Below, in pieces: positions 5,921 to 24,746 of a stretch of DNA of 57,060 nucleotides. Position numbers and translations under genes: made by a program. The first letter of the stretch is position 1. Each line of letters opens with the position of its first letter. The DNA comes from a virus, in IMG/VR virus record IMGVR_UViG_3300019093_000011, positions 1 through 57,060 of that record. One strand, 5' to 3'. The notes under the pieces are model-generated. The model was not told the origin of the DNA, did not search any database, and was given only the letters and a program-made list of their open reading frames with translations.

Positions 5921-6717
5921 TTGAAACTGCCACCTTTATTAGGGGAATTCCCCCAAACTGACGTTTGTTTTTATGTAGCTGCTGATGAAACGTATTTTAA
6001 TCAGCATGCCAAACCGTTGATTCACAGTATTAGACAGTATTTTTCATATCCCATACACTTTCATTTATATAATCCCAGTGATGCGTCAAAAAAATGGTGC
6101 GAAGTCAATGATATTGATTATAGTTATGAAGTAGTTGATGTAAAAATTGTTGATCCAGCATTTAAAATTTACCGTAACATGCCTACTGATATAGAATTGC
6201 AGCGTCGGCGTAGTAAAATGATCAAGCCTGGTGAAAATGTTGAAAAAATTCGTAATGAGTTGATGAAAACTTATTATGCCTGTACTAGATTTGTAAGATT
6301 AAGTGAATTATTGGTTAACCCTACTTACGTTATTATGTTAGACACTGATAGTTTAGTTAGAAATAGATTTGACTTATTAAGTAAGGATTCTGACATTCAT
6401 ATCTATGAAAAAAATCATCGAAGCCATGTAAATTATACGCAACATTGGCCAGTACTATATTTTATACTGGTACGCAGGGTAGTTATGACTTAATGCAAGA
6501 TCATGCTCGACTAATTAGAGAGGAATATGCCAAAGACACACTATATTGGTTTTTAGATCAAGAAACATTAGACATAGCCATACAAAAATATTCTAAACAG
6601 CCATTAGCGTTAAGTTTTGTAGATTTTGAAATGAAAGACGCCAGTAACATATGGTGCGCCAAAGGTCCTAGAAAGAATCTGTCTATCTGGCTCGAAGAAG
6701 TTAAAAATTACCTATAA
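5921..6717 (+). CDS. GT-A glycosyltransferase, reading frame broken by a -1 shift at an A-run
   Basis: Two frames together encode one glycosyltransferase of about 265 aa. The first frame (5921-6493) has a GT8-like start (DVCFYVAADETYF) and a DxD metal-binding motif, LDTDS (141-143). It drifts into non-conserved sequence after residue 164. Moving to the -1 frame at the seven-A run 6408-6414 continues with CKLYATLASTIFYTGTQGS and runs to a stop at 6717. The zero-frame codons AAA AAT allow a classic A AAA AAT slip, so programmed frameshifting, a mutation or a missing A in the assembly are all possible. The start is TTG, with no ATG nearby. It is on the opposite strand to most of the island. Confidence 0.7.
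6408..6415 (+). other. Frame-change site (A7 run, candidate -1 slippery sequence)
   Basis: Seven consecutive A bases followed by T are read in the zero frame as GAA AAA AAT. The -1 frame stays open from here to 6717 and carries the conserved C-terminal half of the glycosyltransferase. Both codons in the slip window can re-pair in the -1 frame. Confidence 0.6.
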
Positions 6718-6744: not shown

Positions 6745-7368
6745 ATGAATATTATTAATGAACGTACTGAACCTGCTATTATAGATTTTGAAATTCCATC
6801 TTTATCAAAAATTGATTTTGATAAGTTATATAGTTACCCCCCAATAGAGCAGAAGTATAATACATTGTACGTGAATCCTGGAAGGTATGATTTACCATAT
6901 CATACTCCAGAACATATTGAGTTATGCCACTTTCTTGAAAGAGACTTATATGATATTTTTAAAAAACTTATGGAAATGGATCAATTTCGTTGGCCAATTT
7001 TAGATACAGGGTTTCAAAATTTTGATTGTTTTTATAGAACAAAAGTTAAAAAAGACCAAGGACTATATCTATCAGTAATGATATACAAGCCTGGCTTTTC
7101 TATGCCGTGGCATTTAGATAATAGATTTGCTGTACTTAACGGAATTATTAATGTCAATGACCATGAAACACAGACATGTTTTTCTACAACAGGCCAAGGA
7201 TGGAATCAGGATACTCAATGTCCTTTAAATGAACACATGATTATTCATCGTGGCACAAAAAAGAAATTTCAAGGAACTGCTTGGACAAACAATGAATTAG
7301 CTTGGCATTGTGTTCCCAAAGTACCTATAGAAAGAAAAGTAATATTATTTGGTGTTAACCTTAGGTAG
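6745..7368 (+). CDS. Probable 2-oxoglutarate/Fe(II)-dependent oxygenase
   Basis: This 207-aa protein has the layout of a small double-stranded beta-helix dioxygenase. H123 and D125 in PWHLD form the HxD iron ligands, H188 (AWHCV) is the candidate distal histidine, and R197 (IERKVILFGVN) is placed to hold 2-oxoglutarate. Such enzymes hydroxylate or demethylate protein side chains, nucleic acid or small molecules; the substrate here is unknown. It has its own exact late promoter and is convergent with the methyltransferase, the two genes overlapping by 8 bases at their 3' ends. A cupin-type protein without oxygenase activity is the alternative. Confidence 0.6.
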   Translation: MNIINERTEPAIIDFEIPSLSKIDFDKLYSYPPIEQKYNTLYVNPGRYDLPYHTPEHIELCHFLERDLYDIFKKLMEMDQFRWPILDTGFQNFDCFYRTKVKKDQGLYLSVMIYKPGFSMPWHLDNRFAVLNGIINVNDHETQTCFSTTGQGWNQDTQCPLNEHMIIHRGTKKKFQGTAWTNNELAWHCVPKVPIERKVILFGVNLR

Positions 7369-8044
7369 GACGTAAGTATATAATACACATATCACACCCT
7401 TGAATAATTTCCCCGTCTGGCCGTGTAATAGTTGACGGGCATTCTAACGAAAAAGTTAAATTATTAGCAATACAAAAATCTAATGTCGTTTTTTTAATTC
7501 CCATATATACACAGTCATCAACCAAAATTATTCCTGATTTTTTCATATTAGCATGTGCATATGACAAATCAGCTAACAATGAATCAGTTGAATGGTCGCC
7601 GTCTATTATAATAAGATCAACATTAGCTACATCCATGGTATGCCAATTTCCCTCAAATAGAGCAAGATTGGTACAATTATTTTTATATATCTGTTGTATT
7701 TTTACAAGGGAATTAGCTTGAATGTTAACAGCTGGATACCAATCCTGTATCATTTTTAAATGTTTGTCATGATCAAGTTTTGTGAAATACACTTCAAAAT
7801 CATTTATATCGGCTGTAACAATTGATTTATCGGGAAAAATTTTAGCCAGTTTATACGCTGTACCACCAGCAAAGGTACCGATCTCAAGTATATTATTTAA
7901 ATTATATTTGTTTATAGTATTAATAATAAATTCTAATTTAACCCCTCCTATTAAAGATAAGGGGTTATTTATGAATATTTCTTCTATAAAAAAGTTATCT
8001 AACTGATTATCAAATTCATACATATTAAATCCATTCTGTGCCAT
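7361..8044 (-). CDS. SAM-dependent methyltransferase (class I, Methyltransf_24-like)
   Basis: This is a 227-aa Rossmann-fold methyltransferase. Motif I is EIGTFAGG (54-61), and SAM ribose contact is expected near ADI (78-80). IDGDHS (147-152) and VDD (175-177) are the acidic motifs typical of the Methyltransf_24/CmcI group found in sugar, polyketide and surface-polysaccharide clusters. It overlaps the SDR-like gene upstream by 20 bases, so the two are co-translated. It likely O-methylates a sugar or another product of the neighbouring enzymes, though the substrate is not visible. Confidence 0.75.
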   Translation of the reverse strand: MAQNGFNMYEFDNQLDNFFIEEIFINNPLSLIGGVKLEFIINTINKYNLNNILEIGTFAGGTAYKLAKIFPDKSIVTADINDFEVYFTKLDHDKHLKMIQDWYPAVNIQANSLVKIQQIYKNNCTNLALFEGNWHTMDVANVDLIIIDGDHSTDSLLADLSYAHANMKKSGIILVDDCVYMGIKKTTLDFCIANNLTFSLECPSTITRPDGEIIQGCDMCIIYLRPT

Positions 8045-8657
8045 CTTTATTAAAGCTTTTTCCGCTATCTGTTTTTTTCAAAGTTGATATCACTTTATGA
8101 ATTTGTTCTGAATCCTTTACATAATCTTCTAATGGAAACCATGATGGGTTTAATGCAAAAAATATACCTCGATGATTTTGACTAAACCCGCGCATTATGT
8201 ATAAGTTCGTTGCTTTGTGGCTAGCATAGCCAGCATGTTTAAAATATTCAGGATTATTGCCGACTATTAAACCGGTCATCATCCATCCTATTTTAGTATC
8301 ATCAGTGATAGACTGAGATAAATGTTTAATCAAAAAATATGGAAGTTGACAATCGATCCACATGTTACGATTCCATGAATCAATTGAATATTCATTACCG
8401 GGGATAAACCAATATTCGCCAACGCTACCACCTGCATTTTGATTGAAAAAAATCAAATCATAAGTTACTGAGTTGTCAATTAAAGTTTGTAATTGCTCTA
8501 GATTTGATTCATGCCAGTTAATCTTTATTACGTTAACGTTAGGATATTCAAAATTAGAACCTGTAACAAGGTCAACTTGGTATCCTATGTCAGATAAATG
8601 TTTAGTAAATGATGCTCCCCATTTGGATCCGCATCCTAATAATAGTGCTTTTTTCAT
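8025..8657 (-). CDS. Short-chain dehydrogenase/reductase-like protein
   Basis: This 210-aa protein has an SDR fold. There is a glycine-rich N-terminal strand-turn (LLLGCGSKWG, 5-14), an NQNAGG motif (72-77) equivalent to NNAG, and a catalytic YxxxK pair at Y144 and K148 (YASHK). SDRs use NAD(P)H to oxidise or reduce sugars and related compounds. The glycine motif is altered from the usual GxxxGxG, so cofactor binding may differ. No Shine-Dalgarno sequence is visible, and a TATAAATA octamer ends only 5 bases before the ATG. It overlaps the methyltransferase and follows a radical SAM gene. Confidence 0.7.
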   Translation of the reverse strand: MKKALLLGCGSKWGASFTKHLSDIGYQVDLVTGSNFEYPNVNVIKINWHESNLEQLQTLIDNSVTYDLIFFNQNAGGSVGEYWFIPGNEYSIDSWNRNMWIDCQLPYFLIKHLSQSITDDTKIGWMMTGLIVGNNPEYFKHAGYASHKATNLYIMRGFSQNHRGIFFALNPSWFPLEDYVKDSEQIHKVISTLKKTDSGKSFNKDGTEWI

Positions 8658-8662
8658 AAGTA

Positions 8663-8670
8663 TATTTATA
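8663..8670 (-). promoter_or_regulatory. TATAAATA octamer just upstream of the SDR-like gene
   Basis: This is an exact T4 late-promoter octamer on the minus strand (TATTTATA on the plus strand), 5 bases before the ATG. If used, transcription would begin at about the start codon and give a leaderless message. In such AT-rich DNA a chance match is also possible. Confidence 0.4.
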
Positions 8671-9904
8671 TTAACTTTAGGTGAGGTATAATATTTAAAG
8701 AATCAGTTCCTCTAATGGAATCTAATTGTTTTGCATAATATACTGCCTTCTGAAATTCAGTAGGATCAGATATTTGATTCAAATTTTTATTAATACTGTC
8801 AAACATATTATCTGTTAATTTATTTTTGATTAACCAAACTTTGTGTATGTCATATAATGTTTTAAATTCTTCTTTAACTGTATCAGGAACATGATGCATT
8901 TGCAAATGATGTGGGAATGCAAGAATATTAAGTTGCCATTGATTAGGTAAAATTTTAGCATGATCATATAACAATCGTTGAGTTTCAAATAAGTTTAAAA
9001 TATTAAACACACTAACAGTAGGGGTAATCTGAATATTAATTGTAGGACATTTGGTTTTTATTAAATTCAAGTTGTATAATAAACGTTCCCATTTTTGCCC
9101 CCATCTGATCCATTCGCCTACTTCTTTGCAGCCGTCTACACTAACCAACAAGGTAATATTTTTAAATTTAGTCCATAGATCTATTACATGTTGTCCCTTA
9201 AATTCTAATTCACTTAAATTAGTTGTATAGTTAATAGATTGATTAGTTTTATTATGTTCAATCCAATAATTCATAATTTTCCAATGATCTTCCATTAATA
9301 ATGGTTCACCACCAGCAAAGTTAACATTAGCCACTGTCATTAAATATGGTTGTAATTGTTCCCATACATCTAATCTAAGATTTTCTTCATGGTAAACTAT
9401 TTTTTGTAGTTTTTTCCAATCATTAACCCATTTACTACTAAACGTAGGACTACATGTTACACATGCAAAATTGCAAAGATTGCTATATCTAATATCTAAA
9501 TATCTTAATTGAAAATCGTCAACTCCACCGTCACTATTAGTCATTGATGTGATTTCTTTCCAATCCAAATAATATTTAAATCCATCAGTTCTCATTGAGG
9601 GCTGTCCCAATGATTCTAATTTATAACATTTTTCACATCCAGAAGTTTCTTTTCCTTCAATCATGTTTTTACGAATAGTTTTTATTAAAGGACTATTGAT
9701 AGTATCATTTATAGAATTATTTTTTATGTTGCCGATTGGTTGTTCACAATCAAACATACAACACGGAAATGCTTTACCATCAGCCCATGCATGTAAATGT
9801 ATCCACGGATAGACACATAACGTATTATTAGAGATAGTGTTGTTTAAGGATGTCATACCATTCAGGGAACGTTGCGGGGAAACTTTCTTTTCTATATGTA
9901 TCAT
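8666..9904 (-). CDS. Radical SAM protein with N-terminal Twitch/SPASM-like cysteine domain (A)
   Basis: This 412-aa protein binds a radical SAM [4Fe-4S] cluster through C144, C148 and C151 (CNFACVTC), followed by GGEP (198-201), which contacts SAM. Before the core lies a second cysteine set: C30 (CVYPW), C48, C49 (PCC), C53, and C90 and C93. This looks like a SPASM/Twitch auxiliary cluster placed at the N-terminus instead of the C-terminus. The reaction is unknown; SPASM-type enzymes usually modify peptides or sugars. The start at 9904 has AAGAAGG upstream but overlaps the previous gene by 77 bases; M17 (9856) would shorten this. It belongs to subgroup 1 with the next two genes. Confidence 0.85.
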   Translation of the reverse strand: MIHIEKKVSPQRSLNGMTSLNNTISNNTLCVYPWIHLHAWADGKAFPCCMFDCEQPIGNIKNNSINDTINSPLIKTIRKNMIEGKETSGCEKCYKLESLGQPSMRTDGFKYYLDWKEITSMTNSDGGVDDFQLRYLDIRYSNLCNFACVTCSPTFSSKWVNDWKKLQKIVYHEENLRLDVWEQLQPYLMTVANVNFAGGEPLLMEDHWKIMNYWIEHNKTNQSINYTTNLSELEFKGQHVIDLWTKFKNITLLVSVDGCKEVGEWIRWGQKWERLLYNLNLIKTKCPTINIQITPTVSVFNILNLFETQRLLYDHAKILPNQWQLNILAFPHHLQMHHVPDTVKEEFKTLYDIHKVWLIKNKLTDNMFDSINKNLNQISDPTEFQKAVYYAKQLDSIRGTDSLNIIPHLKLI

Positions 9905-11012
9905 GTTCTTGAACCTTCTTCAAAAACAATTTTATTTTATTTGGATTAGGGTTGCTTCCAATAAAATTTAAAATATTTAATATATCTGAATTTTTATCTT
10001 TTACGTGATCAAGTTTTTTTAATAATATTTCTTTTATTTTAGGATCTAAAGCATCAACACTATACTCGTTTGGAGAATGTAATATATTATACCAAACACT
10101 ACACCCTAAGTTATCCATAATTTCTGTAGTAATTTCATCTAGATAAAAAACATTAAAATTACTAATAGTAGCGTTTGTTGTTAGTTTAATCCATTTGACT
10201 TGTTGTAATAACTCGATATTGTTTTTTATTATTTCCCATTTATTAGGATGGCGTTGATAATTATGACGTTCATTAATGTCATCTACACTAATTTGTAAAT
10301 CAACTAATTTAAATTTTTCCCATAATGCTAATTGTTCTTGATTAGGAATAATTGTTCCATTTGTGTTATAATGAATCTTTTGATTTTTACTATACCCCTT
10401 TTCAACACTAAGTTTTAATATATTCCACACGTTTTCAATAAGCAATGGTTCTCCACCATATAAATCAAAAGATTCAATATTTGGTAATACTTCTAATAAC
10501 TCATCCCAAATTTTCTCTCCTGTATTCCATGATTGACGTTGAATTTTGAATGTATTTTTAAATTGTTGAATAGATTCTGTTCTACCACTAACGGTAAACC
10601 ATTCGTTTTCCCATTTACTACTATTCCACGGGTTGCAAATTCTGCATTTCAAATTGCAAAGGTTTCCCATTTTTAAATCTATGTTCTTTAAAATAATGTC
10701 AGGTTTATATTGCAAAGTAAGTTGCGTTTTGCTATCACGTACTCGTTTACTTTCTTTCCCAGCTCGTTCCTCATCCCAACAAAAATTACAAGCAGGATGT
10801 TGAACACCATCCATCAATGAATCACGCAAAGAATTCATCCAGTCACTATTAAATGCTGAATCAATTGAGTTAATTGGAACTGATTCAGATATAATTGATT
10901 GGTTACTCATGCAACAGGGTTTATAACTACGTTGGTCACCTGTACTATCTATGCTTAAAGAATTAAACGGATGAATACAAAAAGTATTAATATGCATTAT
11001 ACCATTCCTCAA
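9828..11012 (-). CDS. Radical SAM protein with N-terminal Twitch/SPASM-like cysteine domain (B)
   Basis: This 394-aa enzyme is a relative of its two flanking genes. The radical SAM core has C119, C123 and C126 (CNLKCRIC) and GGEP (186-189). N-terminal auxiliary cysteines are C12 (CIHPFNSLS), C33 and C34 (adjacent pair), and C75 and C78 (CNFCW). It ends in a PEWYDI-like tail, similar to the HPWFEEW tail of protein C. M6 gives an alternative start that brings CIHPF close to the N-terminus and shortens the 26-base overlap with the upstream gene. Substrate and reaction are unknown. The pattern of adjacent CC plus CxxCW matches subgroup 1. Confidence 0.85.
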   Translation of the reverse strand: MRNGIMHINTFCIHPFNSLSIDSTGDQRSYKPCCMSNQSIISESVPINSIDSAFNSDWMNSLRDSLMDGVQHPACNFCWDEERAGKESKRVRDSKTQLTLQYKPDIILKNIDLKMGNLCNLKCRICNPWNSSKWENEWFTVSGRTESIQQFKNTFKIQRQSWNTGEKIWDELLEVLPNIESFDLYGGEPLLIENVWNILKLSVEKGYSKNQKIHYNTNGTIIPNQEQLALWEKFKLVDLQISVDDINERHNYQRHPNKWEIIKNNIELLQQVKWIKLTTNATISNFNVFYLDEITTEIMDNLGCSVWYNILHSPNEYSVDALDPKIKEILLKKLDHVKDKNSDILNILNFIGSNPNPNKIKLFLKKVQEHDTYRKESFPATFPEWYDILKQHYL

Positions 11013-12222
11013 ACCATGGATGTAAGTCTAGCAAAGATTGCTTTCTGCTGTTATCCATATATTTCATACGTTCAATAAATGCTTGTTGTATTTCTACAGT
11101 AGGGTCTTCAGCATTGTATATTTTTTCAAAAGTATGTAATGTGGTAGGTGGAATATATCTAGAATTTTTAGAATCGTTGTATATATTCATGGCATTTTTT
11201 GAAAACACTTTACGAACAGAATGTGGCAATACCCATGGACTCATTGAGTTTGGATAATCAACATTTATATACATCATACTTATTTTCAAATCTTGAACTA
11301 TTATTTCAACTGACCGTTCTACATTCGGCATTGTAAGATTGCTTAATGTTTGGTGTACGCCAATTTGTCGACTTGTTGGGTTTTCATTTCCCCAAATTTT
11401 TAATTCTTTTAAATTATTGTAAATCTTATCCCACTTAGCAGGCCAACGAACATATTCATAAAATCCTTCAACGCCATCAATACTGGCATTAACTTGTACA
11501 GATTTAAATTTATCCCAAGTATTATACCAACGGGTGCCAATAGTTGTTATGTTGGTATTGTATTGTAGTTTAATATTTTTTGCAACGTCCAGTTCAATGA
11601 GTAAGTCTAGCAATTCTGCTTGTTCAGGTATGATTAACGGCTCTCCGCCTAGAAGATGTATATGTTTTATAGTTGATGCATTTGCACGTACTAAATCAAA
11701 AAATCTACTATTAGTTAACCATGATTCGGGCTTTATTGTAATTGCATTATTTTTAAATTTATTATATTCTTCTGCAAACAAACTACTAGAATGAGGTCCA
11801 CACATCCTACATGCCAAATTACATTTAGTACCTAAATCAATTTCTAATTTTTCTATTACAGGGGAATGGTCTCCGTTTAATATTTTTTCATACCGTTCCT
11901 CTGAATATTTGGCGTAGTGGGGGGTTATAGACATTTGTCTATAGCTATGCTGCCCAATATTTTCTAATTCCCAACATCTATCACATTCGGAAATTCGTTC
12001 ATTATTTAATAAACTTTTACGGATTCTTTCAAGAGCAGTTCCGTTTAACCAATTAATATCCGTACGTTCAGTAACATAAGGCGGGCTATCCTTCCCATTT
12101 AAACCATTATTAGAATTACAACATAATCGTTGACTGCCGTCTGAACCAATACTTAGTGAGTTAAAAGGCAATACACATATCGAATTGTTTTTCATATCGT
12201 ATTTCATCATATGTTTTTGCAC
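10987..12222 (-). CDS. Radical SAM protein with N-terminal Twitch/SPASM-like cysteine domain (C)
   Basis: This 411-aa protein has radical SAM cysteines C134, C138 and C141 (CNLACRMC) and GGEP (192-195). N-terminal auxiliary cysteines are C16 (CVLPFNSLS), C34 and C35 (LCC), and C80 and C83 (CDRCW). The order is a SPASM-like N-domain of about 100 residues, the TIM-barrel core, and then a C-terminal helical part. It shares PFNSLSI and the GS(T)GDQR-type turn with protein B, which points to gene duplication. It overlaps both neighbours (26 and 16 bases), so it is probably co-expressed with them. M5, M6 or M10 are alternative starts. Confidence 0.85.
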   Translation of the reverse strand: MQKHMMKYDMKNNSICVLPFNSLSIGSDGSQRLCCNSNNGLNGKDSPPYVTERTDINWLNGTALERIRKSLLNNERISECDRCWELENIGQHSYRQMSITPHYAKYSEERYEKILNGDHSPVIEKLEIDLGTKCNLACRMCGPHSSSLFAEEYNKFKNNAITIKPESWLTNSRFFDLVRANASTIKHIHLLGGEPLIIPEQAELLDLLIELDVAKNIKLQYNTNITTIGTRWYNTWDKFKSVQVNASIDGVEGFYEYVRWPAKWDKIYNNLKELKIWGNENPTSRQIGVHQTLSNLTMPNVERSVEIIVQDLKISMMYINVDYPNSMSPWVLPHSVRKVFSKNAMNIYNDSKNSRYIPPTTLHTFEKIYNAEDPTVEIQQAFIERMKYMDNSRKQSLLDLHPWFEEWYNAY

Positions 12223-13595
12223 TCATTAATAAATTCTATATACTCTGGAAATACTAAATTGAAATCAGTTTTTCTACGACGGTCGTGCTCTATAAAAAAT
12301 GCTGCAAAATCAGATTTTGCATTTGCTAGCTCATCATCAAACAATTTGTATTGCTTCATAGAAGATAATACACGTTCTAATCTTTCAACTTCAACTTTAG
12401 TGAACCCTGTATAATTTTCAGTTATATTTGACTTCATAAATTTAATATCTTCTTCTAAATATTTTTGAAAACTATCAGGCAATATATTAATGGTCCAATG
12501 TGCTGGTTCTTTTAAATGAGGCGTACAAAAATCTATCCGTTGTTGTGTCTGACTAAATTCTTGACGCCATTCTAAAATTTTTTCTAATAACGATCTAAAA
12601 GAAGCGACCGCTAAATTATTGTAAGTAATCATAATTTCTATACTAGCATCAACATTTTTAAAATCATATAATATAGTTTTGAAATTTTCTTCCCATATGC
12701 TACAATCTAAACCAAATCTAATATATTCTGCTGGTGCTCCCCATGTATCTAAACTTACATGCATACGGAAATTTTTGATACATTTAGTTTGAAGTAAATA
12801 TTGAACTTTCTTCCCTAAACGTTGAATCAATGCAGGTTTCACTCCCAAATTACTGTTAACTAACAATGTCATATTAGGGCAGGGATCTTTTTCTAATTTA
12901 TCTAATAATTGCCAAGTATTCTGATTTAGCATAGGCTCTCCGCCAGTGATGCGTAACGTTTGCAAATTTAATTTAAGTGTCGGCCACCATTGCCAAAATG
13001 CTTTTACGTATGGATTATTTTCATCATTGCTTTCGTAGTATTCTCTATCTTTAAGAAAATCTATACTGTATTGTTTACTTTTTATAGGGTAATCACCATG
13101 CTCTTTTATTTCTTCAATCCAAGAATTACTTACTGTTGGGGTACAATATCCGCATTTAAAATTACACACATTTCCAAAATTAACTTCAATCAATTTAGGG
13201 TCATAATTTGCATCCCATGGTAATTTTTTAATAATATTATAATCATCACCATTCATTGCTGGTTGAACATGGGTTGTTGTATGATGACTACTATGAATAA
13301 CTCTATCAGATAGATGACCAGTGTCTTCCACTTTCCAACAATAATGGCATTCTTGCGGTCTACCGCCCTCTAACATTATTTTTCTCTGTTCTTTTTTATA
13401 TTGTGTATTATGTAACCCACTAGGATTATTTTCAATATCGGCGGGCTGTATTTTATGAGGGAACGGGTGATAGCAACTGTGATTATCCCCAGATTGCAAA
13501 TACAATGTTTGTTGAGTCCATTTTAATAAACAAAATCCAGGGCCAACTTTATCCAATTGTAATTTAGTTTCATTAATGTGTTCAATAGAATTCAT
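12207..13595 (-). CDS. Radical SAM protein, phage Twitch-type subgroup 2 (D)
   Basis: This 462-aa protein has core cysteines C144, C148 and C151 (CNFKCGYC) and GGEP (218-221). Its N-terminal domain differs from proteins A-C. It has C22 in FCLLKW, a single C41 in SCYHP instead of an adjacent CC pair, and C83 and C86 (CHYCW). An LHNTxxK motif, GGRPQEC and an HLSDR segment accompany these. It contains a tryptophan-rich FWQWWP segment just before the GGEP strand. Proteins F and G share this whole layout. The substrate is unknown. It overlaps protein E's ORF by 4 bases, so translation is coupled. Confidence 0.85.
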   Translation of the reverse strand: MNSIEHINETKLQLDKVGPGFCLLKWTQQTLYLQSGDNHSCYHPFPHKIQPADIENNPSGLHNTQYKKEQRKIMLEGGRPQECHYCWKVEDTGHLSDRVIHSSHHTTTHVQPAMNGDDYNIIKKLPWDANYDPKLIEVNFGNVCNFKCGYCTPTVSNSWIEEIKEHGDYPIKSKQYSIDFLKDREYYESNDENNPYVKAFWQWWPTLKLNLQTLRITGGEPMLNQNTWQLLDKLEKDPCPNMTLLVNSNLGVKPALIQRLGKKVQYLLQTKCIKNFRMHVSLDTWGAPAEYIRFGLDCSIWEENFKTILYDFKNVDASIEIMITYNNLAVASFRSLLEKILEWRQEFSQTQQRIDFCTPHLKEPAHWTINILPDSFQKYLEEDIKFMKSNITENYTGFTKVEVERLERVLSSMKQYKLFDDELANAKSDFAAFFIEHDRRRKTDFNLVFPEYIEFINECKNI

Positions 13596-14863
13596 ATTAA
13601 TTTAGCATCTTCTGCATTAGGGTTTCCTAACTCACCGTTATCTAGTTTATTCCATTCTTTCCCACAACACGAAGTACATTGTTTACTACGCATATTATGA
13701 TCTAATTCAAATGAACGTGGTAGCAAGCGTTGATATAAATCACTTTCAATAATAGAGGATAAACTATGATTATGTAAATCAATTGATTTCCTGCCTCCAT
13801 ATAATTCCAACATTTTCATAAAGGAATCGTCACTTTTTATTGATGGTAAGGTTGGTGAATTGCCTCCAATAAATCTATTAGGTTCCCCACCTAAAAAACA
13901 GCAAGGATATACTTCACCTTCTGCACTTACAAAAATTTCATCATTGTAACCGTATCCGCCCTTTTTAAAGTCAATAGCCCTGCAAGCAATTTCTATTTTT
14001 TTAAAATTAATTTCTATTGAATTGCCAGTTTTAGGATCAAATTCTCTATACATATCAGAATTTTCTCCATTAACAGACGGATACATTGCATCAAATTCTT
14101 CGTTAGAAATATAATTAGGAACAATACCGATAATCTTCTTTAAAGTATCAGCATTGTTATTTCGTAACGATTCATCTGTTGGTTGTTGTAATAGATAATT
14201 ACTGTTTTTATCTGGCACTACGTAATACCCTAATCCGGCTGAATCATAATTACTCCATCTAGTTGTTTTTTTAACGTTGAAAGTTGTAAATCCCATTTCT
14301 TTAGCCATTTGCCTAGCAGTATCAATTTGATGTGCGTTATGTCTGAATGCAAGGTAGTCCCAATGAGCCACTCCCCCAGCTTCTCTAAATGCCTTCATGT
14401 TTGCTAATATTTTATTAAAATTTGTATTTCTTCTGTATAGATGATTAGTATCTTCTAGCCCGTCAACGCTGAATACGCAATAATCTCCTCGTCTTTGCCC
14501 GTTCATTAATAATCCTAACTCATAGAACCATTCAGGAGATCTAGCACTGGCATTTGTATGCATTACTAATGCCATATTAGAATTGTTTTCTCTTAAATAT
14601 TTATAAATTGGTAAAGTATCTTTAGCGGCGATGGGATCACCATAATTTCCACAGGCATATAATTTCTTTAATTGCGATACAAATGCAGGATCGAACCATT
14701 TTATAAAATCATTATATTTAATATCTGTTTCTACAAGATTAGGATTCAAATCAGCACCAGAGTTAATATACCTAGGACACATAGGGCAGCCTGCATTACA
14801 CCTATTAGTAATTTCTAAATGTATTCCATTAATTTCTTTATATGACCATAGTCCGTTATTCAT
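13592..14863 (-). CDS. Radical SAM protein with C-terminal SPASM-like domain (E)
   Basis: This 423-aa protein has the standard domain order, unlike its neighbours. The radical SAM core comes first with C22, C26 and C29 (CNAGCPMC), and HLEITNRC precedes the cluster. The C-terminal part carries C294, then C321 and C322 in VYPCCFLGGEP, then C396, C399 and C400 (CTSCC), which fits SPASM auxiliary Fe-S ligands. SPASM enzymes often act on peptides, and some on sugars. A good ribosome site (AAGGAA) lies upstream of the ATG. It overlaps the SGNH-like gene by 4 bases. It may perform a different step from the six Twitch-first enzymes. Confidence 0.85.
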   Translation of the reverse strand: MNNGLWSYKEINGIHLEITNRCNAGCPMCPRYINSGADLNPNLVETDIKYNDFIKWFDPAFVSQLKKLYACGNYGDPIAAKDTLPIYKYLRENNSNMALVMHTNASARSPEWFYELGLLMNGQRRGDYCVFSVDGLEDTNHLYRRNTNFNKILANMKAFREAGGVAHWDYLAFRHNAHQIDTARQMAKEMGFTTFNVKKTTRWSNYDSAGLGYYVVPDKNSNYLLQQPTDESLRNNNADTLKKIIGIVPNYISNEEFDAMYPSVNGENSDMYREFDPKTGNSIEINFKKIEIACRAIDFKKGGYGYNDEIFVSAEGEVYPCCFLGGEPNRFIGGNSPTLPSIKSDDSFMKMLELYGGRKSIDLHNHSLSSIIESDLYQRLLPRSFELDHNMRSKQCTSCCGKEWNKLDNGELGNPNAEDAKLI

Positions 14864-15687
14864 AGATAAGTTTCCTTGTTGTTTAACGTTTGTGCAATTT
14901 GCTGTGCAAACACTTCATGTGTTTCATTATCAAAATGTCTATCTGGAAGATAATTTATTGCACGCATGATACATTTAGGATCTATATTTAATATATTACT
15001 TCCTATAACTAATTCAGAAAATGCTAGATTATCAATTATGTTTAACTTTCGCATCTGATTCCATATAGAAATTGTCAAGAATTCGGGAGCAGCAATTATT
15101 GGGAAAGACCCTGTAAATGATTTAACCACGTTGTTCAATAAGGCAACTTCTAGCAACCATTTAATCAATAAATCCTGATCAGTAAATATTAAGATTGATT
15201 CCCTTATAATAGGTGCCAGTTTAGTACTATAATGATCATGCCCCAATACAGTCGATTCTATCCACGCACGATGGTCTCCGTCCAAAAATGATTTATTTTT
15301 GGCATGAATAGTATTAGTAATTGTGGTTAATCTAGTAGTCTCAGTTAGCATTATTATTACTTTTTTTGGAGTAATGCCCTCCATCTGTAATTTTGTTAAA
15401 TCAAGCATCGTTCGATATAATATCGAACCCATACTACTGCCGCCTTCTGCTGCATTAATTATTTCTATACCTAATATTTTGCTTAGGCGCGCTGGCCAAC
15501 TAAGTTCTTTGTTTCTTACGTTGTACATTGAACAAATTTTAGGATCTTGAATTACATTAAATCGAACTTTGTTAAAATAATCTTTTGTTGAAATATTATT
15601 TTTATTATATTTTTCAAAATCAGGCACAAACTCATGATCTGCTAATCCTATGCCAGCAGTAAAACTATCACCATTAACATAAATCAT
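14860..15687 (-). CDS. SGNH/GDSL-like hydrolase or esterase
   Basis: The start chosen is MIYVNGDSFTAG, giving 275 aa. The frame is open upstream to ATG 15744, but that would overlap the previous gene by 71 bases. The nucleophile block is GDSFT (residues 6-10). An EGGSSMGS segment about 70 residues later may supply the oxyanion glycine. DRHFDNETHEVFAQ near the C-terminus supplies the acid and histidine typical of SGNH enzymes. The family removes or transfers acyl groups on carbohydrates and other esters, often in polysaccharide clusters. It sits between radical SAM genes E and F. There is no signal peptide with the chosen start, so it would act in the cytoplasm. Confidence 0.65.
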   Translation of the reverse strand: MIYVNGDSFTAGIGLADHEFVPDFEKYNKNNISTKDYFNKVRFNVIQDPKICSMYNVRNKELSWPARLSKILGIEIINAAEGGSSMGSILYRTMLDLTKLQMEGITPKKVIIMLTETTRLTTITNTIHAKNKSFLDGDHRAWIESTVLGHDHYSTKLAPIIRESILIFTDQDLLIKWLLEVALLNNVVKSFTGSFPIIAAPEFLTISIWNQMRKLNIIDNLAFSELVIGSNILNIDPKCIMRAINYLPDRHFDNETHEVFAQQIAQTLNNKETYL

Positions 15688-17107
15688 GTTTTTTTCTTTC
15701 ATATGTTTCATAAGTTTCTTTACATAATTTAGCAAATGATTCATACAACGGAAAAGTTTTAATTAAATCAAGTTTACTTCTCTTATCATATTCAGTAAAG
15801 AAAACATGAAAATCTCTTCGTCCGCGGGTAATTAAATCTTCTGTGATTTTTGGGCCGCCCTCATTGAAGTAATCCATAACACGTTTAAATTTTTCAATTT
15901 CAACGTTGGCAAATTTAGTTGGATCATAATTGTCACCTTGACAGTTTAACCGCATAAATTCTAAATCATCTTCTAAATATTTACCAAAAGAATCTTTTGG
16001 TAAAATATTGATCATCCAGTGTGGAGGTTCTTTTAAGTATGGGGTATCAAATGTGATTCTTTGCCAATTATTGGTACTATATTTGGCACGTAACTCAAGT
16101 ATCTTTTCTAGTAATGGACGAAAGTATGCTACGCATAATATATTATAAGTGATCATAAACCCAATTTGAGAATTAGGTAGCAATGTCAAAAATTTATTTA
16201 AATTAGTTTCCCATAATTTACAATCAAGTCCTCGACGCATGTATTCTGCTTGCTCGCCCCAACTGTCTATACTGGTAAACATCTTAAATCCTTTAATCTT
16301 TCCAAGAGCTAACAGTTTTTTAACTTGAGTAATCATTCTCTCTACTCTAGAAGTAGCAACCCCTAAATTACTATTAATTATTAAAATTAAATTAGGGGCT
16401 GGTTCTTCCTCTAATTTATCTAATAATTTAAAAGTACTAGGATGCATTAATGCTTCACCACCGGTTAAGCGCAGTACTCTTAGATCATTACGTAAACTAG
16501 GCCACCATTCCCAAAATGCAGCAACATAGGGATTATTTTCATCATCAGGATAATAACTACCACTATCTAAAAATTCAATCCCATACTGATTATATGTTAA
16601 ATCGTAATTACCCTTCTTTTTAATTTCTTCAATCCATAGAGTACTGGACTGCGGGCAACAATATCCACAATTAAAATTACAGTTGTTACTGAAACTCATT
16701 TCTAAATAATAAGGATTATAATTTTTATCCCATGGTTGATTTTTTATTAATTCAATTTCTTTATCAATGTCTTGTAGCCATTCACTTGAATTATGCAATG
16801 CTCTATCACTAAAATGTTCGCCGGTCAAATCCTCTATATTCCAACAATAATAACATTCATCAGGGCGATTGCCTTCTAGCATAGTTTTTCGTTGTTCTTT
16901 TTTCCATTTAGTATTATGTAAAGCTGATACATCAACTTTTATTTCTTCTAAAGGTACTTTATTTGGCCTTGGATGATAACATGAATGATTATCCCCGGTA
17001 TGTAAGTATAAAGTCTCATGTCTCCATTTCTGGAGGCAAAATCCTTTGCCAACTGCATTTAATTTTTCTTTAACTGATCTTAATTTATTGATATAATTGT
17101 CGTTCAT
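15674..17107 (-). CDS. Radical SAM protein, phage Twitch-type subgroup 2 (F)
   Basis: This 477-aa protein has core cysteines C143, C147 and C150 (CNFNCGYC; an extra C151 follows) and a GGEA variant of the GGEP motif. The N-terminal domain has C24 in FCLQKW, C43 in SCYHP, LHNTKWK, and C85 and C88 (CYYCW), then HFSDR. The overall layout matches proteins D and G closely, including a FWEWWP segment before the GGE strand, so these arose by duplication. The stop lies inside the SGNH-like gene start region. The upstream gap to protein G is a single base. Substrate unknown. Confidence 0.85.
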   Translation of the reverse strand: MNDNYINKLRSVKEKLNAVGKGFCLQKWRHETLYLHTGDNHSCYHPRPNKVPLEEIKVDVSALHNTKWKKEQRKTMLEGNRPDECYYCWNIEDLTGEHFSDRALHNSSEWLQDIDKEIELIKNQPWDKNYNPYYLEMSFSNNCNFNCGYCCPQSSTLWIEEIKKKGNYDLTYNQYGIEFLDSGSYYPDDENNPYVAAFWEWWPSLRNDLRVLRLTGGEALMHPSTFKLLDKLEEEPAPNLILIINSNLGVATSRVERMITQVKKLLALGKIKGFKMFTSIDSWGEQAEYMRRGLDCKLWETNLNKFLTLLPNSQIGFMITYNILCVAYFRPLLEKILELRAKYSTNNWQRITFDTPYLKEPPHWMINILPKDSFGKYLEDDLEFMRLNCQGDNYDPTKFANVEIEKFKRVMDYFNEGGPKITEDLITRGRRDFHVFFTEYDKRSKLDLIKTFPLYESFAKLCKETYETYERKKHDLC

Positions 17108-17108
17108 T

Positions 17109-18674
17109 TTAAAAATCTTTATTATAAATTACGTTACACTCTTCTAAATAAAACTTTAACTCAGGGAAAATTTCATTAAAATTTTTATTCTTTCTTTTAT
17201 CATATTCAGTGATGAATAAGTAAAAATTCAGTTTATTTATTCTCTTAATCTGCTCTGGCAAGTCGTCCTCCATAATAGCTAAATCTCTTTTTAATTTTAA
17301 AATTTCATAAGGTTTGAACCCTTCAAGAGTCTCACTATAATTTTCATCTTGAACATTATCTTCCATAAATTTAATGCATTTTTTAACTTGGTCAATACCA
17401 TATTTTCCAGCATTTTGAACACTAAGCCAGTCTGGTTTATATAATATAGGCACATCAAACCATATTCTTTGAAATTTTCTTCTTAGAATAGGAGGATGAT
17501 CTATTCCATGACTTGGTGGGGAATTAACAAATTTTTCCTTTTGTGTTCTCCCGCCAAACTCTCTTCTTAATTCTAAAATTAATTCTAAAAAATTTTGTAA
17601 TTTTGGTATACTTAAAATATTTAAAGTATTAATAAAGCTAACAGTGGTATACTCTGTTTCATTTAAAAATCTTCTTAGATTTTTTAAAAGAGTTGGATAA
17701 CTTAATCCAGATCTTATATATTCTGCTTGCTCAGCTACAGAGTCTAAACTAATATATAACCAGAAATGTTTAAAGCCCTTATCCACATAGCAATGATTAC
17801 CGCTATGCTCGTTAAAATTATCTTTGTCCTCATAAGTGCGGATAGCTTCAATTGCTTGCACTTTACTAATAAATCGATCAAACAATTTAGGATCTGGCGG
17901 ACACATATTACTGGTAATACTTAGTTCTAATTGTCCGTGAGGATTTTCATTCACGTAGTCCAATACCTTGAATGTATTTTTATCCATCAATGGCTCGCCA
18001 CCGGTCATACGAAACACCCGCAGATTACGATATATCTCTGGCCACCAACGCCAAAAAGCTTCAACATATGGATTTTCTTTATTAGACAACTTTAATGGCA
18101 TAAGACCTTTTCTTTCTAAAGCTTCCAAATTATTATGAGTTTTAAATCCAGTTTCAGAATATATTTCATATGGTCCAAATTGCTTTATTTCATCTTCCCA
18201 AGTGGTACTAAGATGGGGACTACAATACATACATTTAAAATTACAACTTTGATTAAAGTTAACTTCTACATATCTAGGCTTTATGTTTTCATCTAAAGGA
18301 TTTTGTACAATTTTATCAAAATCTGGGTGTGCCCACCATTCACTACTTCTATAATGTCTATCACTCAAATGACTTTCATCATTTTCACTTTTGGCGTCTT
18401 CAATTTTCCAACAATAAGAACATCCATCTGGTCGTTCTCCAGAAATCATCTGTTTTCTATCGTGTAATTTAATTACAGTATTATGCAAAGCGCCTGGATT
18501 TTTATCTAAATTCTCCAAAGGTATCCTGTGTGTGGGAGGATGGTAACAACTTTGAGTTAACCCTTGTGGTAAATGCAAACTTACCTGTGACCATTTAGCT
18601 AAACAAAATGATGGACTTATTTCGTTTAACTTTTGTCTCATTAATTTTGCATGATTGTGATATTCACTAGACAT
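17109..18674 (-). CDS. Radical SAM protein, phage Twitch-type subgroup 2 (G)
   Basis: At 521 aa this is the longest radical SAM protein of the island and the first gene of that block to be read. Core cysteines are C144, C148 and C151 (CNFKCMYC), followed by a TGGEPLM segment. The N-terminal set is C24 (FCLAKW), C43 (SCYHP), C85 and C88 (CSYCW), with LHNT and HLSDR motifs as in D and F. The extra length lies in the core and C-terminal half, for example around RRKFQRIWFDVP. It has short spacing to the glycosyltransferase-like gene upstream (6 bases). The reaction is unknown. Confidence 0.85.
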   Translation of the reverse strand: MSSEYHNHAKLMRQKLNEISPSFCLAKWSQVSLHLPQGLTQSCYHPPTHRIPLENLDKNPGALHNTVIKLHDRKQMISGERPDGCSYCWKIEDAKSENDESHLSDRHYRSSEWWAHPDFDKIVQNPLDENIKPRYVEVNFNQSCNFKCMYCSPHLSTTWEDEIKQFGPYEIYSETGFKTHNNLEALERKGLMPLKLSNKENPYVEAFWRWWPEIYRNLRVFRMTGGEPLMDKNTFKVLDYVNENPHGQLELSITSNMCPPDPKLFDRFISKVQAIEAIRTYEDKDNFNEHSGNHCYVDKGFKHFWLYISLDSVAEQAEYIRSGLSYPTLLKNLRRFLNETEYTTVSFINTLNILSIPKLQNFLELILELRREFGGRTQKEKFVNSPPSHGIDHPPILRRKFQRIWFDVPILYKPDWLSVQNAGKYGIDQVKKCIKFMEDNVQDENYSETLEGFKPYEILKLKRDLAIMEDDLPEQIKRINKLNFYLFITEYDKRKNKNFNEIFPELKFYLEECNVIYNKDF

Positions 18675-18680
18675 TTAAAT

Positions 18681-19586
18681 TTAATCTCTTTCTATTAAAT
18701 CAACTCTATTATGAGTCTGATATACTATTTTAAAAAACTTAGATTGTATACTACCCAAAGAGGCCACACTCAAATCTAAATTATTAACTAATTCTTTTGC
18801 ATAAAAATCTAATCGTTCATCAAGATCAACGTCTTTAACTTGAGCATGCCACATATCTGTTAGGTAATCAAAATCACGTACATTACGATAATCCCAATCA
18901 GTTAAATTGGTCATATAACAGCCTTGTCTAGCACCCATCATAGCCCATAAGCCGTTATTAACATCACTACCAATATTACACCAAATCATTAACCTATGCA
19001 AATTTTTCCAATGTACACCTTCTTTTACAGTGACTTTAGTTAGCTTGGCTCCACGGTCTAAGCTCATTTTTACGCCTTCCCTAAATCCTGCTCGCCATGC
19101 TTGAAAAGGTGTGGCATTGTTATGCACATCACTATAACAACCATTCATTTGAATATATTGGTTATCCCAACAGAAATCAACTTGACCTACACTGTCTTTG
19201 GGATCAGCGTTTTCATGTGTACGCATGTTCATGACGAAATCCACAGTCCAACATTTTAACCCGCCATTGCCATACATTAGGCCATTGATGATATTGTATC
19301 CACTCCAACTGATCACGCTGTTTTCTAAATTGGGATATTTGGTCATGTCTATTTCTATGTTTAGAAAATCTGAACGAACTATATTATCGCCGTCTACTGT
19401 GGTAAATCTTGGAGTTTCACTTAATTGAGCACAGGCTTTGTGGGCACTGTCACTGCCTTTGACCCCATGTACACGCTTGGCCCAAGGCACTTTGGTCAAT
19501 AAATCTGCATAATTTTTCTCAGCATTTGGTTCATCATAACTGAGATATATGATATCATAATCGAGGGGTCTAAATACTTTTGTCAT
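18681..19586 (-). CDS. Glycosyltransferase-like protein (GT-A type), common in marine T4-like phages
   Basis: This 301-aa protein has a GT-A-like N-terminus (DYDIIYLSYDEPNAEKNYADL) and a VDGDN motif (64-68) that fits a DxD nucleotide-sugar and metal site. PWAKRVHGVKGSDSAHKAC is a distinctive stretch seen in related phage proteins. The C-terminal half has HWKNLHRLMIW and no membrane segment. Its function is inferred as sugar transfer; activity and target are unproven. It overlaps the 219-aa gene by 4 bases (ATGA), so the two are co-translated. Confidence 0.6.
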   Translation of the reverse strand: MTKVFRPLDYDIIYLSYDEPNAEKNYADLLTKVPWAKRVHGVKGSDSAHKACAQLSETPRFTTVDGDNIVRSDFLNIEIDMTKYPNLENSVISWSGYNIINGLMYGNGGLKCWTVDFVMNMRTHENADPKDSVGQVDFCWDNQYIQMNGCYSDVHNNATPFQAWRAGFREGVKMSLDRGAKLTKVTVKEGVHWKNLHRLMIWCNIGSDVNNGLWAMMGARQGCYMTNLTDWDYRNVRDFDYLTDMWHAQVKDVDLDERLDFYAKELVNNLDLSVASLGSIQSKFFKIVYQTHNRVDLIERD

Positions 19587-20242
19587 ATTTTTGTTCTAAT
19601 ATATTGATATTTTTCAAAGAGTTTTCTTGCATACACACTTACTCTGACTTCATCTTCATCTACTCGATCAAATGGCAATATGCAATAAAAGTTATTGATT
19701 AATTTGGTCATAGGAATTCGTAATGTTTTATATAACACGTTAGGGTCATTAAATTCTGTTAGGTAAATCTCGTAAGTTTGATCAAAATATAATTTTCTAT
19801 CACGTAATGATCGTGCCAGTGTGCCATTAATGAATACTTTCCAGCAAGTTTCTGCATAATCTTGTACGACAGTGATATCGTTAGTGGGATCATAATTTAA
19901 GGGAACGCTTGTATCTACTGTATATGGAAATTGAAATATTACGTCATGAACACTTTGTAATATTTCCTCTTGCTCATCTAATCGAATAAATGTATAGTCC
20001 TTAGCATCTGGACTGAAAATAACTTTATAGTTATGGATAACATCTGTGCCTTCTAATAAGTTTTTAACTTGACTAAAATTCACTGTGACTGATGGCAATG
20101 TCTGATCATTGGCCATATTGGAAATGCCTTTTATTTCACCAGTTTCAGGCTCATAAAAGACAAATCTAAAATCATCTTGTTTAAATTTGTTATTGTAGGA
20201 TTTTAAATCCTCTTCAGTGATGTCCCATTCTACTTGTAACAT
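19583..20242 (-). CDS. Conserved phage protein of unknown function, 219 aa
   Basis: This is a soluble, beta-rich 219-aa protein with many aromatic and acidic residues. It starts with LQVEWDITEEDL and contains a WKVFINGTLARSLRD segment that reads like a beta-sandwich strand pair. No catalytic motif is visible. It lies between two glycosyltransferase genes, overlapping one (ATGA) and abutting the other, so it belongs to the same translational unit. A structural or accessory protein is equally possible. Confidence 0.5.
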   Translation of the reverse strand: MLQVEWDITEEDLKSYNNKFKQDDFRFVFYEPETGEIKGISNMANDQTLPSVTVNFSQVKNLLEGTDVIHNYKVIFSPDAKDYTFIRLDEQEEILQSVHDVIFQFPYTVDTSVPLNYDPTNDITVVQDYAETCWKVFINGTLARSLRDRKLYFDQTYEIYLTEFNDPNVLYKTLRIPMTKLINNFYCILPFDRVDEDEVRVSVYARKLFEKYQYIRTKI

Positions 20243-23390: not shown

Positions 23391-23734
23391 TGAGTCAATG
23401 CCTCTACGCTTCTATTCTTTTTAAGCAGTTGATAATCGTTATAATAACTGTTTGAAGCAATAAAATATTGATCAATTACGTCATCTAAAAATTGTTGTAA
23501 ATCACTTACTCTAACTGGCAAGTCGTTGTCGTCAATTACCACAACATCAGTGATATTGCCCATGTCAATAAGAGTTTTCAAAAAAGTGATGAGATCTTTA
23601 GTAATAGTAAATGTGCCACCATTTTGATAGTAGACACAATCAGTATGATATTTTTCTTTTAGGGCTCGTTTTTGATTATTTAGAGTTACCATAAAGTTGG
23701 CAAACTCTAGAGCCTTTTCCAGTCTTTCGTCCAT
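23387..23734 (-). CDS. Conserved marine T4-like phage protein, 115 aa
   Basis: This is a small helical protein of unknown function. MDERLEKALEFANFMVTLNNQKR at the start and LQQFLDDVIDQYFIASNSYY near the end are characteristic of a short family in marine T4-like phages. It overlaps the glycosyltransferase start as ATGA. A clear AGGAG ribosome site sits 7 bases before its ATG and lies inside a hairpin (23738-23774), so its translation may be controlled. Confidence 0.6.
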   Translation of the reverse strand: MDERLEKALEFANFMVTLNNQKRALKEKYHTDCVYYQNGGTFTITKDLITFLKTLIDMGNITDVVVIDDNDLPVRVSDLQQFLDDVIDQYFIASNSYYNDYQLLKKNRSVEALTQ

Positions 23735-23787: not shown

Positions 23788-24723
23788 TTATGGACCGCTA
23801 GTGGTAGCTATTGTAGGTGCATTAACTGCCACATTGGTGCCAGTAGCACGATAGTGTTGTACACGACTAGTAGTAGTGCCACCAACAGCTTCGTCAATGT
23901 TATTACTACCAGAGGTAGAATTTCCAGCGTCGTTAAATTTAATAGTCAAGGTTAAAACGGTAGCTGTTCCTGTATTGTTGTTAGCAACATTACAATAAGC
24001 TTCCACACTGAAAATATTATTTGCATAAGTAAGAGTACTGGTACTAGTTAAAATTGTCTGAGCTGAACTAGTTAACCCATACCAACCTATACTAGATCCA
24101 GTAACACCAGCTGTTGTATTAGTATATCCAAATTTTACGGTGCCAATAGTGGATAGAAAATTGACCCAAGCATTGCCTTTTGCAATAGTATCGGCAGCAG
24201 CACCTGATGAACTATGACTAGGAACTATTCTTATTTCTCCGCCTGCATTGAAAAAATATCTAGCATTGGCAGCATCGGCAAAAGTCACGGTCACAATATG
24301 AGTACGTAGTCCATTCCAATTAGTAAAGGTCGGTGTTACCCCGTCTACTGCTGTTGCTTGATTAGCACTTAATATAAATCTATTAGTGTTTAAAGTGTCT
24401 GCTTGAGTTTTATAAGTATTCCATTCGCTATAGCCAATAGTGCCGCCAACTGATATACTGGGTGCTGTACTAGCTGAAAAAGTTTGATGAAAAGAAATCT
24501 TATCCAAGTCAGTTTTTAAATTTTGCATCTGACTGGCTGTTATATTAGTGTCAGCAGCAATTTGACTGCTACTCACTGTTTGTCCATAACCAGTCTGGGT
24601 ACTTAATGTAGCCGCACCACTTCCAGTGCCTAATACATTAGCCACAATAGTTTGAATAGCATTGTAATCTGCTAGATAAATCGCGTCGCCAGTTGCTTTT
24701 GGAAATACACCTGCTGTGGCCAT
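23788..24723 (-). CDS. Putative virion structural protein, 311 aa
   Basis: This 311-aa protein is rich in threonine, serine, alanine and glycine and poor in charge, as is usual for tail-fibre or capsid decoration proteins. It starts MATAGVFPKATGDAIYLADYN, and a central segment has alternating hydrophobic strands (HIVTVTFADAANARYFFNAG). No enzymatic motif is seen. It has an exact late promoter octamer 15 bases upstream and a good ribosome site (GAGAGGA). It directly follows the fibre genes in the tail module, so it is probably a distal fibre or accessory structural protein. Confidence 0.6.
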   Translation of the reverse strand: MATAGVFPKATGDAIYLADYNAIQTIVANVLGTGSGAATLSTQTGYGQTVSSSQIAADTNITASQMQNLKTDLDKISFHQTFSASTAPSISVGGTIGYSEWNTYKTQADTLNTNRFILSANQATAVDGVTPTFTNWNGLRTHIVTVTFADAANARYFFNAGGEIRIVPSHSSSGAAADTIAKGNAWVNFLSTIGTVKFGYTNTTAGVTGSSIGWYGLTSSAQTILTSTSTLTYANNIFSVEAYCNVANNNTGTATVLTLTIKFNDAGNSTSGSNNIDEAVGGTTTSRVQHYRATGTNVAVNAPTIATTSGP

Positions 24724-24738
24724 CTTAAATCCTCTCGT

Positions 24739-24746
24739 TATTTATA
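24739..24746 (-). promoter_or_regulatory. T4-type late promoter octamer TATAAATA
   Basis: An exact TATAAATA on the minus strand in the gap before the 311-aa structural gene, 15 bases from its ATG. Confidence 0.75.

Follow-up and report, generated by a model that had tools for sequence, protein, structure and literature searches.

A conserved, ordered set of seven radical SAM genes in jumbo phages and its possible role in late glycan tailoring

Why some phages carry many radical S-adenosylmethionine (SAM) enzymes has been an open question at least since the Campylobacter phage genomes of 2010. The question is raised again by a linear IMG/VR virus record of 57,060 bases (IMGVR_UViG_3300019093_000011; the whole stretch is referred to as the window), in which positions 8666-18674 hold seven full-length radical SAM open reading frames (ORFs), all on the minus strand, with an SGNH-like gene among them. 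The original prediction, made from the sequence alone, read this island as a dedicated pathway. We consider it somewhat probable that the seven proteins (R1, R2, R3S, R4, R5, R6, and R7) form one dedicated, late-expressed, cytosolic pathway, which, with the glycosyltransferases encoded directly upstream, would tailor a glycan; this reading is based on a gapless operon, conservation of the ordered set, purifying selection, late promoters, a conserved core of tail, glycosyltransferase, and R1 genes, and a bacterial polysaccharide island.

The identification of seven radical SAM proteins was confirmed far beyond chance at the level of sequence. Six of them passed the curated cut-off of NF033640 (NCBIfam N_Twi_rSAM; 170 bits, whole-protein score) by a wide margin: R1 (521 amino acid residues; 17109-18674; 277 bits), R2 (477 residues; 15674-17107; 296 bits), R4 (462 residues; 12207-13595; 294 bits), R5 (411 residues; 10987-12222; 300 bits), R6 (394 residues; 9828-11012; 310 bits), and R7 (412 residues; 8666-9904, with the true start probably at ~9856; 350 bits). 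R3S (423 residues; 13592-14863) scored 52.7 bits and was therefore not placed in this N-twitch family; it passed Pfam SPASM (PF13186) with 26.0 bits (gathering threshold, 21.5). NF033640 is defined by sequence alone, and neither a published function nor an account of ordered multi-gene sets was found for it. Regarding motifs, CxxxCxxC was present in all seven proteins as originally claimed, while GGEP or GGEA occurred at the usual place in six (GGEA in R2 and GGEP in the others); in R3S, the sole GGEP is at residue 325 in the C-terminal region. Among 108 family members, C12, C33, C75, C78, C119, C123, C126, and GGE186-188 (R6 numbering) were invariant, and CxxxCxxC, the N-terminal cysteines, and GGE were thus kept throughout.

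R6, the only radical SAM protein folded, gave a confident AlphaFold2 (AF2) model (mean predicted local distance difference test [pLDDT] score, 92.1) with a radical SAM core, and its top PDB matches were all radical SAM enzymes (template modeling [TM] scores of 0.3-0.4), the best of them being CteB, viperin, BlsE, anSME, and DesII (0.35-0.40). R6 is accordingly modelled as a radical SAM partial TIM-barrel core that is predicted to bind a 4Fe-4S cluster. A lack of Fe-S sites in structure predictions had been named as evidence against the original prediction; this was not observed, given the invariant Fe-S cysteines and the R6 model.

In the order of transcription, three glycosyltransferase-like genes are followed by R1, R2, SGNH, R3S, R4, R5, R6, R7, a short-chain dehydrogenase/reductase (SDR) gene, and a methyltransferase gene. 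The intergenic gaps from GT21078, the first of the three, through the methyltransferase gene range from -77 to +8 bp; these genes therefore form one operon without space for a precursor peptide gene. The small precursor gene beside a maturase that characterizes clusters for ribosomally synthesized and post-translationally modified peptides was not found, either here or in the contiguous set of a related contig (L158, see below); such a precursor was rejected for the operon, and one may still be encoded elsewhere in the genome. No membrane segment above 1.5 (Kyte-Doolittle hydropathy, 19 residues) was detected in the operon proteins, and hydropathy revealed among them no integral-membrane flippase or glycosyltransferase of the kind found in a GtrABC-type serotype conversion module.

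Support for the modification toolkit originally described beside the radical SAM genes was of two kinds. The methyltransferase (Methyltransf_24; 7361-8044, minus strand) was assigned by Pfam (36.5 bits; gathering threshold, 26.3), while the SGNH-like hydrolase/acyltransferase (14860-15744, minus strand; true start probably at ~15687-15705), the SDR-like oxidoreductase (8025-8657, minus strand), and the oxygenase-like protein OX6745 (6745-7368, plus strand) were recognized by motifs alone (GDS at residue 25, YASHK of the YxxxK type, and HxD, respectively), with no Pfam match. Used as a query against viral contigs, the SGNH-like protein gave no match; distant relatives were found in L031, L056, and L074, and the gene is absent from L158-L163. 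The SDR-like protein matched two loci, L164 (58%) and L165 (48%), beside R1, R2, and R5.

Is this arrangement peculiar to one phage? Scanning with R3S brought up six further viral contigs (L158-L163), four of which (L158, L159, L160, and L162) hold R1-R2-R3S-R4-R5-R6-R7 in the identical order; in L161 and L163, contig ends cut the set, and only the portion inside the contig is present. The proposed check, whether other viral contigs keep the set as a whole, thus had a positive outcome, and the genes were not single and randomly placed, as they should have been if the original prediction were wrong. Identities to the window proteins were 41-64% (in L158, 47, 57, 55, 62, 50, 54, and 41% from R1 to R7; 55% for R3S in L158-L162). 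In a phylogenetic tree, the window copies of R3S, R4, R5, R6, and R7 formed separate clades (exclusive in the case of R4), each with the gene of the same position in L158, L159, and L162, and are by this phylogeny one-to-one orthologues; R2 belonged to an orthologue group common to many phages. The dN/dS values between the L158-L163 contigs, where dS was unsaturated, were 0.008-0.042 for all seven genes, which by this measure are under strong purifying selection. Set conservation, the orthology of R3S-R7, and purifying selection together supported the dedicated pathway. Relatives of OX6745 (37-41%) are encoded directly upstream of the set in L158, L159, L160, and L162. In L158, an oxygenase-like gene and a desaturase gene stand side by side, adjoining the set; a tail island of Pelagibacter phage Mosig EXVC030M also has Asp_Arg_Hydrox and desaturase genes. 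Horizontal transfer of the set was considered because the sets occupy different genome places; it was not established, since the identities resemble that of gp47 (52-53%) and most of them exceed that of gp6 (37%) only somewhat.

A wider view was provided by R1, the first enzyme of the array and its most widely conserved member: a scan of viral contigs gave 94 relatives, of which 80 were kept for comparison of loci. In approximately 30 loci, a tail-fibre gene is followed by g23788, g23387, GT21078, GT20243, a small gene, GT18681, and R1 (referred to as the tail/GT/R1 core), and then by a variable number of radical SAM genes. In the window, the members from g23788 onwards are on the minus strand: g23788 (23788-24723), a tail-region protein with 26% Ser and Thr; g23387 (23387-23734), a small conserved protein; GT21078 (21078-23390), a glycosyltransferase-like protein into which four tandem CBM5/12-like modules of ~100 residues are inserted (Pfam CBM_5_12 and repeat analysis), its relatives in related loci having a short form of ~270-300 residues; GT20243 (20243-21085), a glycosyltransferase-like protein, which resembles the C-terminal part of GT21078 and has no Pfam assignment; g19583 (19583-20242), with weak relatives at the same position in L165 and L190; and GT18681 (18681-19586), located 6 bp upstream of R1. 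The AF2 model of GT18681 (pLDDT 91.5) matched the GT-A glycosyltransferases WrtF (fucosyltransferase), SunS, TarP, and RmlT in Foldseek with low TM scores, and the protein is assigned a GT-A fold. GT18681 was kept beside R1 in most related loci, and a member of its family was located no more than two genes upstream of the first radical SAM gene in 51 of 77 loci. Further toolkit genes in related loci encode carbamoyltransferase, RmlB-like, UDP-sugar dehydrogenase-like, cytidylyltransferase, and SGNH proteins.

The arrays behind this core vary in size. Window-type loci contain one to nine radical SAM genes with R1 in the first position, some phages have the core with R1 as the sole radical SAM gene there, and at least three in a row were found in 43 of 80 loci (longest run, nine); whole records contain up to 16-17 matches, not all of which were above the cut-off. 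This variation, together with the changing distal members, would fit a loose collection that changes rapidly, in which independent enzymes each have a target of their own and do not make up a single pathway. The exact order of seven genes at 41-64% identity, with selection on every one of them, argues against such a collection, as do positional orthologue groups, which a tree of 153 array proteins revealed in other arrays also; we regard this explanation as decidedly unlikely. Recent tandem duplication was likewise rejected, because in this tree the paralogues are old and group by position. Furthermore, the tail/GT/R1 core is present apart from the detached sets in the same genomes, and the set thus stands as an independent unit.

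When would these genes be expressed? The T4-type late promoter motif NATAAATA was found ~20-27 bp upstream of five minus-strand structural genes (54191, 48205, 31966, 26619, and 24746) and before OX6745 (6713), and at none of the glycosyltransferase or radical SAM gene starts in the window. The site at 24739-24746 (minus strand) is the last at a gene start before the operon, and g23788 starts downstream of it. Across the 80 related loci, NATAAATA was located upstream of the TF24742-type gene in 24 of 29 loci, upstream of none of 104 GTa and none of 63 GTb genes, and upstream of 4 of 354 radical SAM genes; three permuted motifs did not reproduce this pattern. In L158, L159, L160, and L162, the late-promoter motif, within the sequence AATAAATAATCTACGCAGTTAATTATG, lies directly upstream of R1, 24 bp before its start; these contigs are mutually related, and the R1 promoter does not therefore represent four independent events. 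The window also encodes a gp55-type late sigma factor (54360-55064, plus strand; PHROG 12791, E = 8e-62), which makes the late-promoter reading plausible, so that both the promoters and the sigma factor of a T4-type late transcription unit are present. Sigma-70 and terminator scans gave approximately the same numbers of sites as in shuffled sequence. We infer from these motifs that the radical SAM genes are expressed late, in the window by read-through from tail promoters, and that the detached sets use a promoter of their own. As a separate observation, TATAAATA was rarer than expected in the window (5 vs 16.5 sites), with four of the five sites directly before gene starts.

This late-promoter architecture argues against the proposal made for Campylobacter phages CP220 and CPt10, which have many radical SAM genes, that these are general auxiliary metabolic genes boosting host metabolism (PMC2853527). 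The constant gene order and the orthology within the set also disagree with it, and none of 14 control genomes held an N_Twi family member above the cut-off; these are not, therefore, enzymes of common host pathways, and the auxiliary role seems hardly probable at all.

Relatives of these proteins also occur in bacteria. When genome contigs were scanned with R5-R7, 77 loci were obtained, of which 41 belong to Bdellovibrionota, and proteins above the cut-off were present in 30 of 114 genomes of this phylum, which includes Halobacteriovorax, compared with 1 of 119 genomes of the Paenibacillus phylum as a control (each sample including the genome from which it was drawn). Bacterial homologues are thus, as far as these scans go, concentrated in predatory Bdellovibrionota. 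On a Halobacteriovorax chromosome (contig PBIO01000014, L194-L196), a polysaccharide region of ~57 kb holds R1/R4-like (35-38%), R7-like (31%), and R5-like (31%) N-twitch proteins together with epimerases, group 1 and group 2 glycosyltransferases, an ABC-2 permease/ATPase pair, and transketolase, SIS, cytidylyltransferase, carbamoyltransferase, and DegT aminotransferase genes. This island, the principal support for a glycan role, resembles the phage loci in having radical SAM proteins of both phage clades with glycosyltransferases, sugar enzymes, and a carbamoyltransferase, and differs in being chromosomal, in having its own ABC exporter, and in that the radical SAM genes are interspersed instead of forming one array. 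Flagellin glycosylation was set aside; flagellin-like genes were found near radical SAM genes at one locus only (L112). Three loci filed under Candidatus Pelagibacter, Betaproteobacteria TMED41, and Verrucomicrobia TMED56 (L081, L082, and L114) have the phage tail/GT/R1 gene order and are, to judge from it, probably phage contigs binned with bacteria. In four contigs of marine metagenome-assembled genomes (L100, L113, L126, and L149, from Gammaproteobacteria, Rickettsiales, Acidimicrobiaceae, and Chloroflexi), as many as 10 radical SAM genes of N-twitch and other types follow one another, on phage or chromosome.

The same neighbourhoods bear on two other products. Production of a small-molecule metabolite during infection, antibiotic-like or derived from sugars or amino acids, has been proposed for jumbo cyanophage clusters with carbamoyltransferase and oxygenase genes (PMC7824862), and aminotransferase, amidinotransferase, and QueC-like genes are located close to related arrays. 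The strong linkage to glycosyltransferase and tail genes, and the ABC-exported polysaccharide of the Halobacteriovorax island, make a metabolite very unlikely. Peptides are common substrates of Twitch/SPASM radical SAM enzymes. Peptide maturases are among the closest folds of R6, and the array stands behind tail-fibre genes in a late operon; the radical SAM proteins might thus alter residues of tail proteins directly (epimerization, thioether formation, or C-C cross-links), with the glycosyltransferases adding sugars separately. We consider such modification of virion proteins unlikely, in view of the missing room for a small precursor ORF in the window operon and the contiguous L158 set, the nucleotide-sugar and polysaccharide-export genes adjoining the chromosomal homologues, and the occurrence of the set apart from tail genes.

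In the glycan pathway that we prefer, the GT-A enzymes would build a short glycan, and R1, usually beside GT18681, would perform the first radical modification. R2-R7 may then carry out different C-H reactions, such as epimerization, dehydration, and deoxygenation, on successive sugars or positions, and the SGNH, SDR, methyltransferase, and oxygenase proteins would complete the decoration. The target would be the virion tail or a host envelope polysaccharide; we lean slightly towards the tail, because of the late tail operon, the absence of membrane proteins, and the Ser/Thr-rich tail-region protein encoded directly upstream. With either target, the expected use would be in adsorption, through host recognition, masking, or the exclusion of rival or sister phages. 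Several observations weigh against this pathway. R1-R7 have no known substrate or product; array membership differs widely among phages; and the set in L158-L163 adjoins DNA polymerase, fatty-acid desaturase, and endolysin-like genes, not glycosyltransferases. The closest folds are those of peptide (CteB, anSME, and SuiB), nucleotide (viperin), and sugar (BlsE and DesII) enzymes, and this mixture leaves the substrate unsettled by structure. Many Bdellovibrionota loci have ordinary neighbour genes, and a Pfam tally of the neighbours of 145 bacterial genes was mixed, consisting mainly of single housekeeping families with top ranks richer in radical SAM, Asp_Arg_Hydrox, and GT2; by itself, this tally would not support a glycan role. 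The bacterial support consists of one polysaccharide island examined in detail and shared toolkit genes, not of a tested enrichment.

How does the set compare with systems already described? Clusters of radical SAM genes in T4-like phages have been known since 2010, and the contrast drawn in the original prediction with single phage genes was too strong, since clusters have been published for CP220/CPt10, a TARA genome, and pelagimyophages. CP220 and CPt10 carry 11-12 radical SAM genes (PMC2853527), some of them in an exchangeable module of five genes that comes with an amidinotransferase; a T4-like phage with a five-gene cluster is thus a point of likeness, and the CP220 record has nucleotide-diphospho-sugar transferase domains in the cluster. 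Unlike the window set, the CP220 proteins are distant R3S relatives (23%) or belong to a different SPASM-like type, the N-twitch profile gives weak scores with just two of them (38 and 45 bits), and the clusters of CP220 and CPt10 differ from each other; beyond the distant R3S matches and these weak scores, no homologous members of the CP220-type module were found in the window. The variable host-recognition cluster at the tail fibres of pelagimyophages, where glycosyltransferase genes are found as well, has gained radical SAM cassettes, and a role in surface modification was proposed (PMC7029224). The island of Mosig EXVC030M (48461-77009; L178) contains two Asp_Arg_Hydrox genes, a fatty-acid desaturase gene, MoaA-like radical SAM genes, an ArnB-like (DegT-like) aminotransferase gene, and a carbamoyltransferase gene; these resemble genes in the related loci, while no N-twitch array, unlike in the window, is present in the stretch examined. 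A T4-like TARA genome has 12 radical SAM genes, which the relevant passage of PMC5332604 gives as Fe-S genes without order, family, or pathway. For the jumbo cyanophage clusters with glycosyltransferase, carbamoyltransferase, and oxygenase genes, capsule decoration was the other proposed function, and, unlike for the window, no radical SAM enzymes are named in the text (PMC7824862). In the portion of the open-access literature covered, the ordered N-twitch set, its linkage to glycosyltransferase and tail genes, and its kinship with Bdellovibrionota look new.

Among 50,697 records of isolate phages, R1, GT18681, and GT20243 had no relative; R7 matched Vibrio phages, and part of R3S matched Campylobacter phages and Mosig, at 23-25% only. 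Vibrio phage K566 (255 kb; L180, 153697-174848) has four distant N-twitch-like proteins clustered near a PagP-like lipid A acylation gene. The nearest isolates were revealed by other genes: for the baseplate wedge protein, identity was 34-36% to Agrobacterium phage Atu_ph07, Sinorhizobium phage Phosso, Salicola phage SCTP-2, RaK2, and GAP32; for the UvsW-like helicase, it was 52-54% to Phosso and Atu_ph07. The term T4-like used originally is therefore valid at the supergroup level only, and these similarities best place the phage within the T4 supergroup in its jumbo Atu_ph07/Phosso/SCTP-2/RaK2/GAP32 branch. The lengths of several related contigs are 170-520 kb. No tRNA was found in the window. 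Upstream of OX6745, a glycosyltransferase-like gene at 5921-6717 (plus strand) is in two overlapping frames (5921-6493 and 6445-6717), which fits a frameshift or sequencing error.

With a fixed and selected set of seven genes that has its own late promoter, the question narrows to a defined candidate pathway, open to expression and assay as a whole, and its link to polysaccharide-type neighbourhoods gives a concrete class of substrates to test. The concentration of the N-twitch family in Bdellovibrionota, which also have to recognize and attach to bacterial prey, suggests that both groups require unusual surface glycans. It is conceivable, although we propose this tentatively and with some doubt, that jumbo phages and predatory bacteria share an undescribed class of multi-enzyme radical SAM glycan tailoring, in which ordered N-twitch enzymes would rework sugars position by position, and an exotic glycan made late on the phage tail or host envelope would control adsorption. 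If this is true, radical SAM chemistry would be extended to phage adsorption, and these arrays would be a source of uncharacterized carbohydrate-active radical enzymes.

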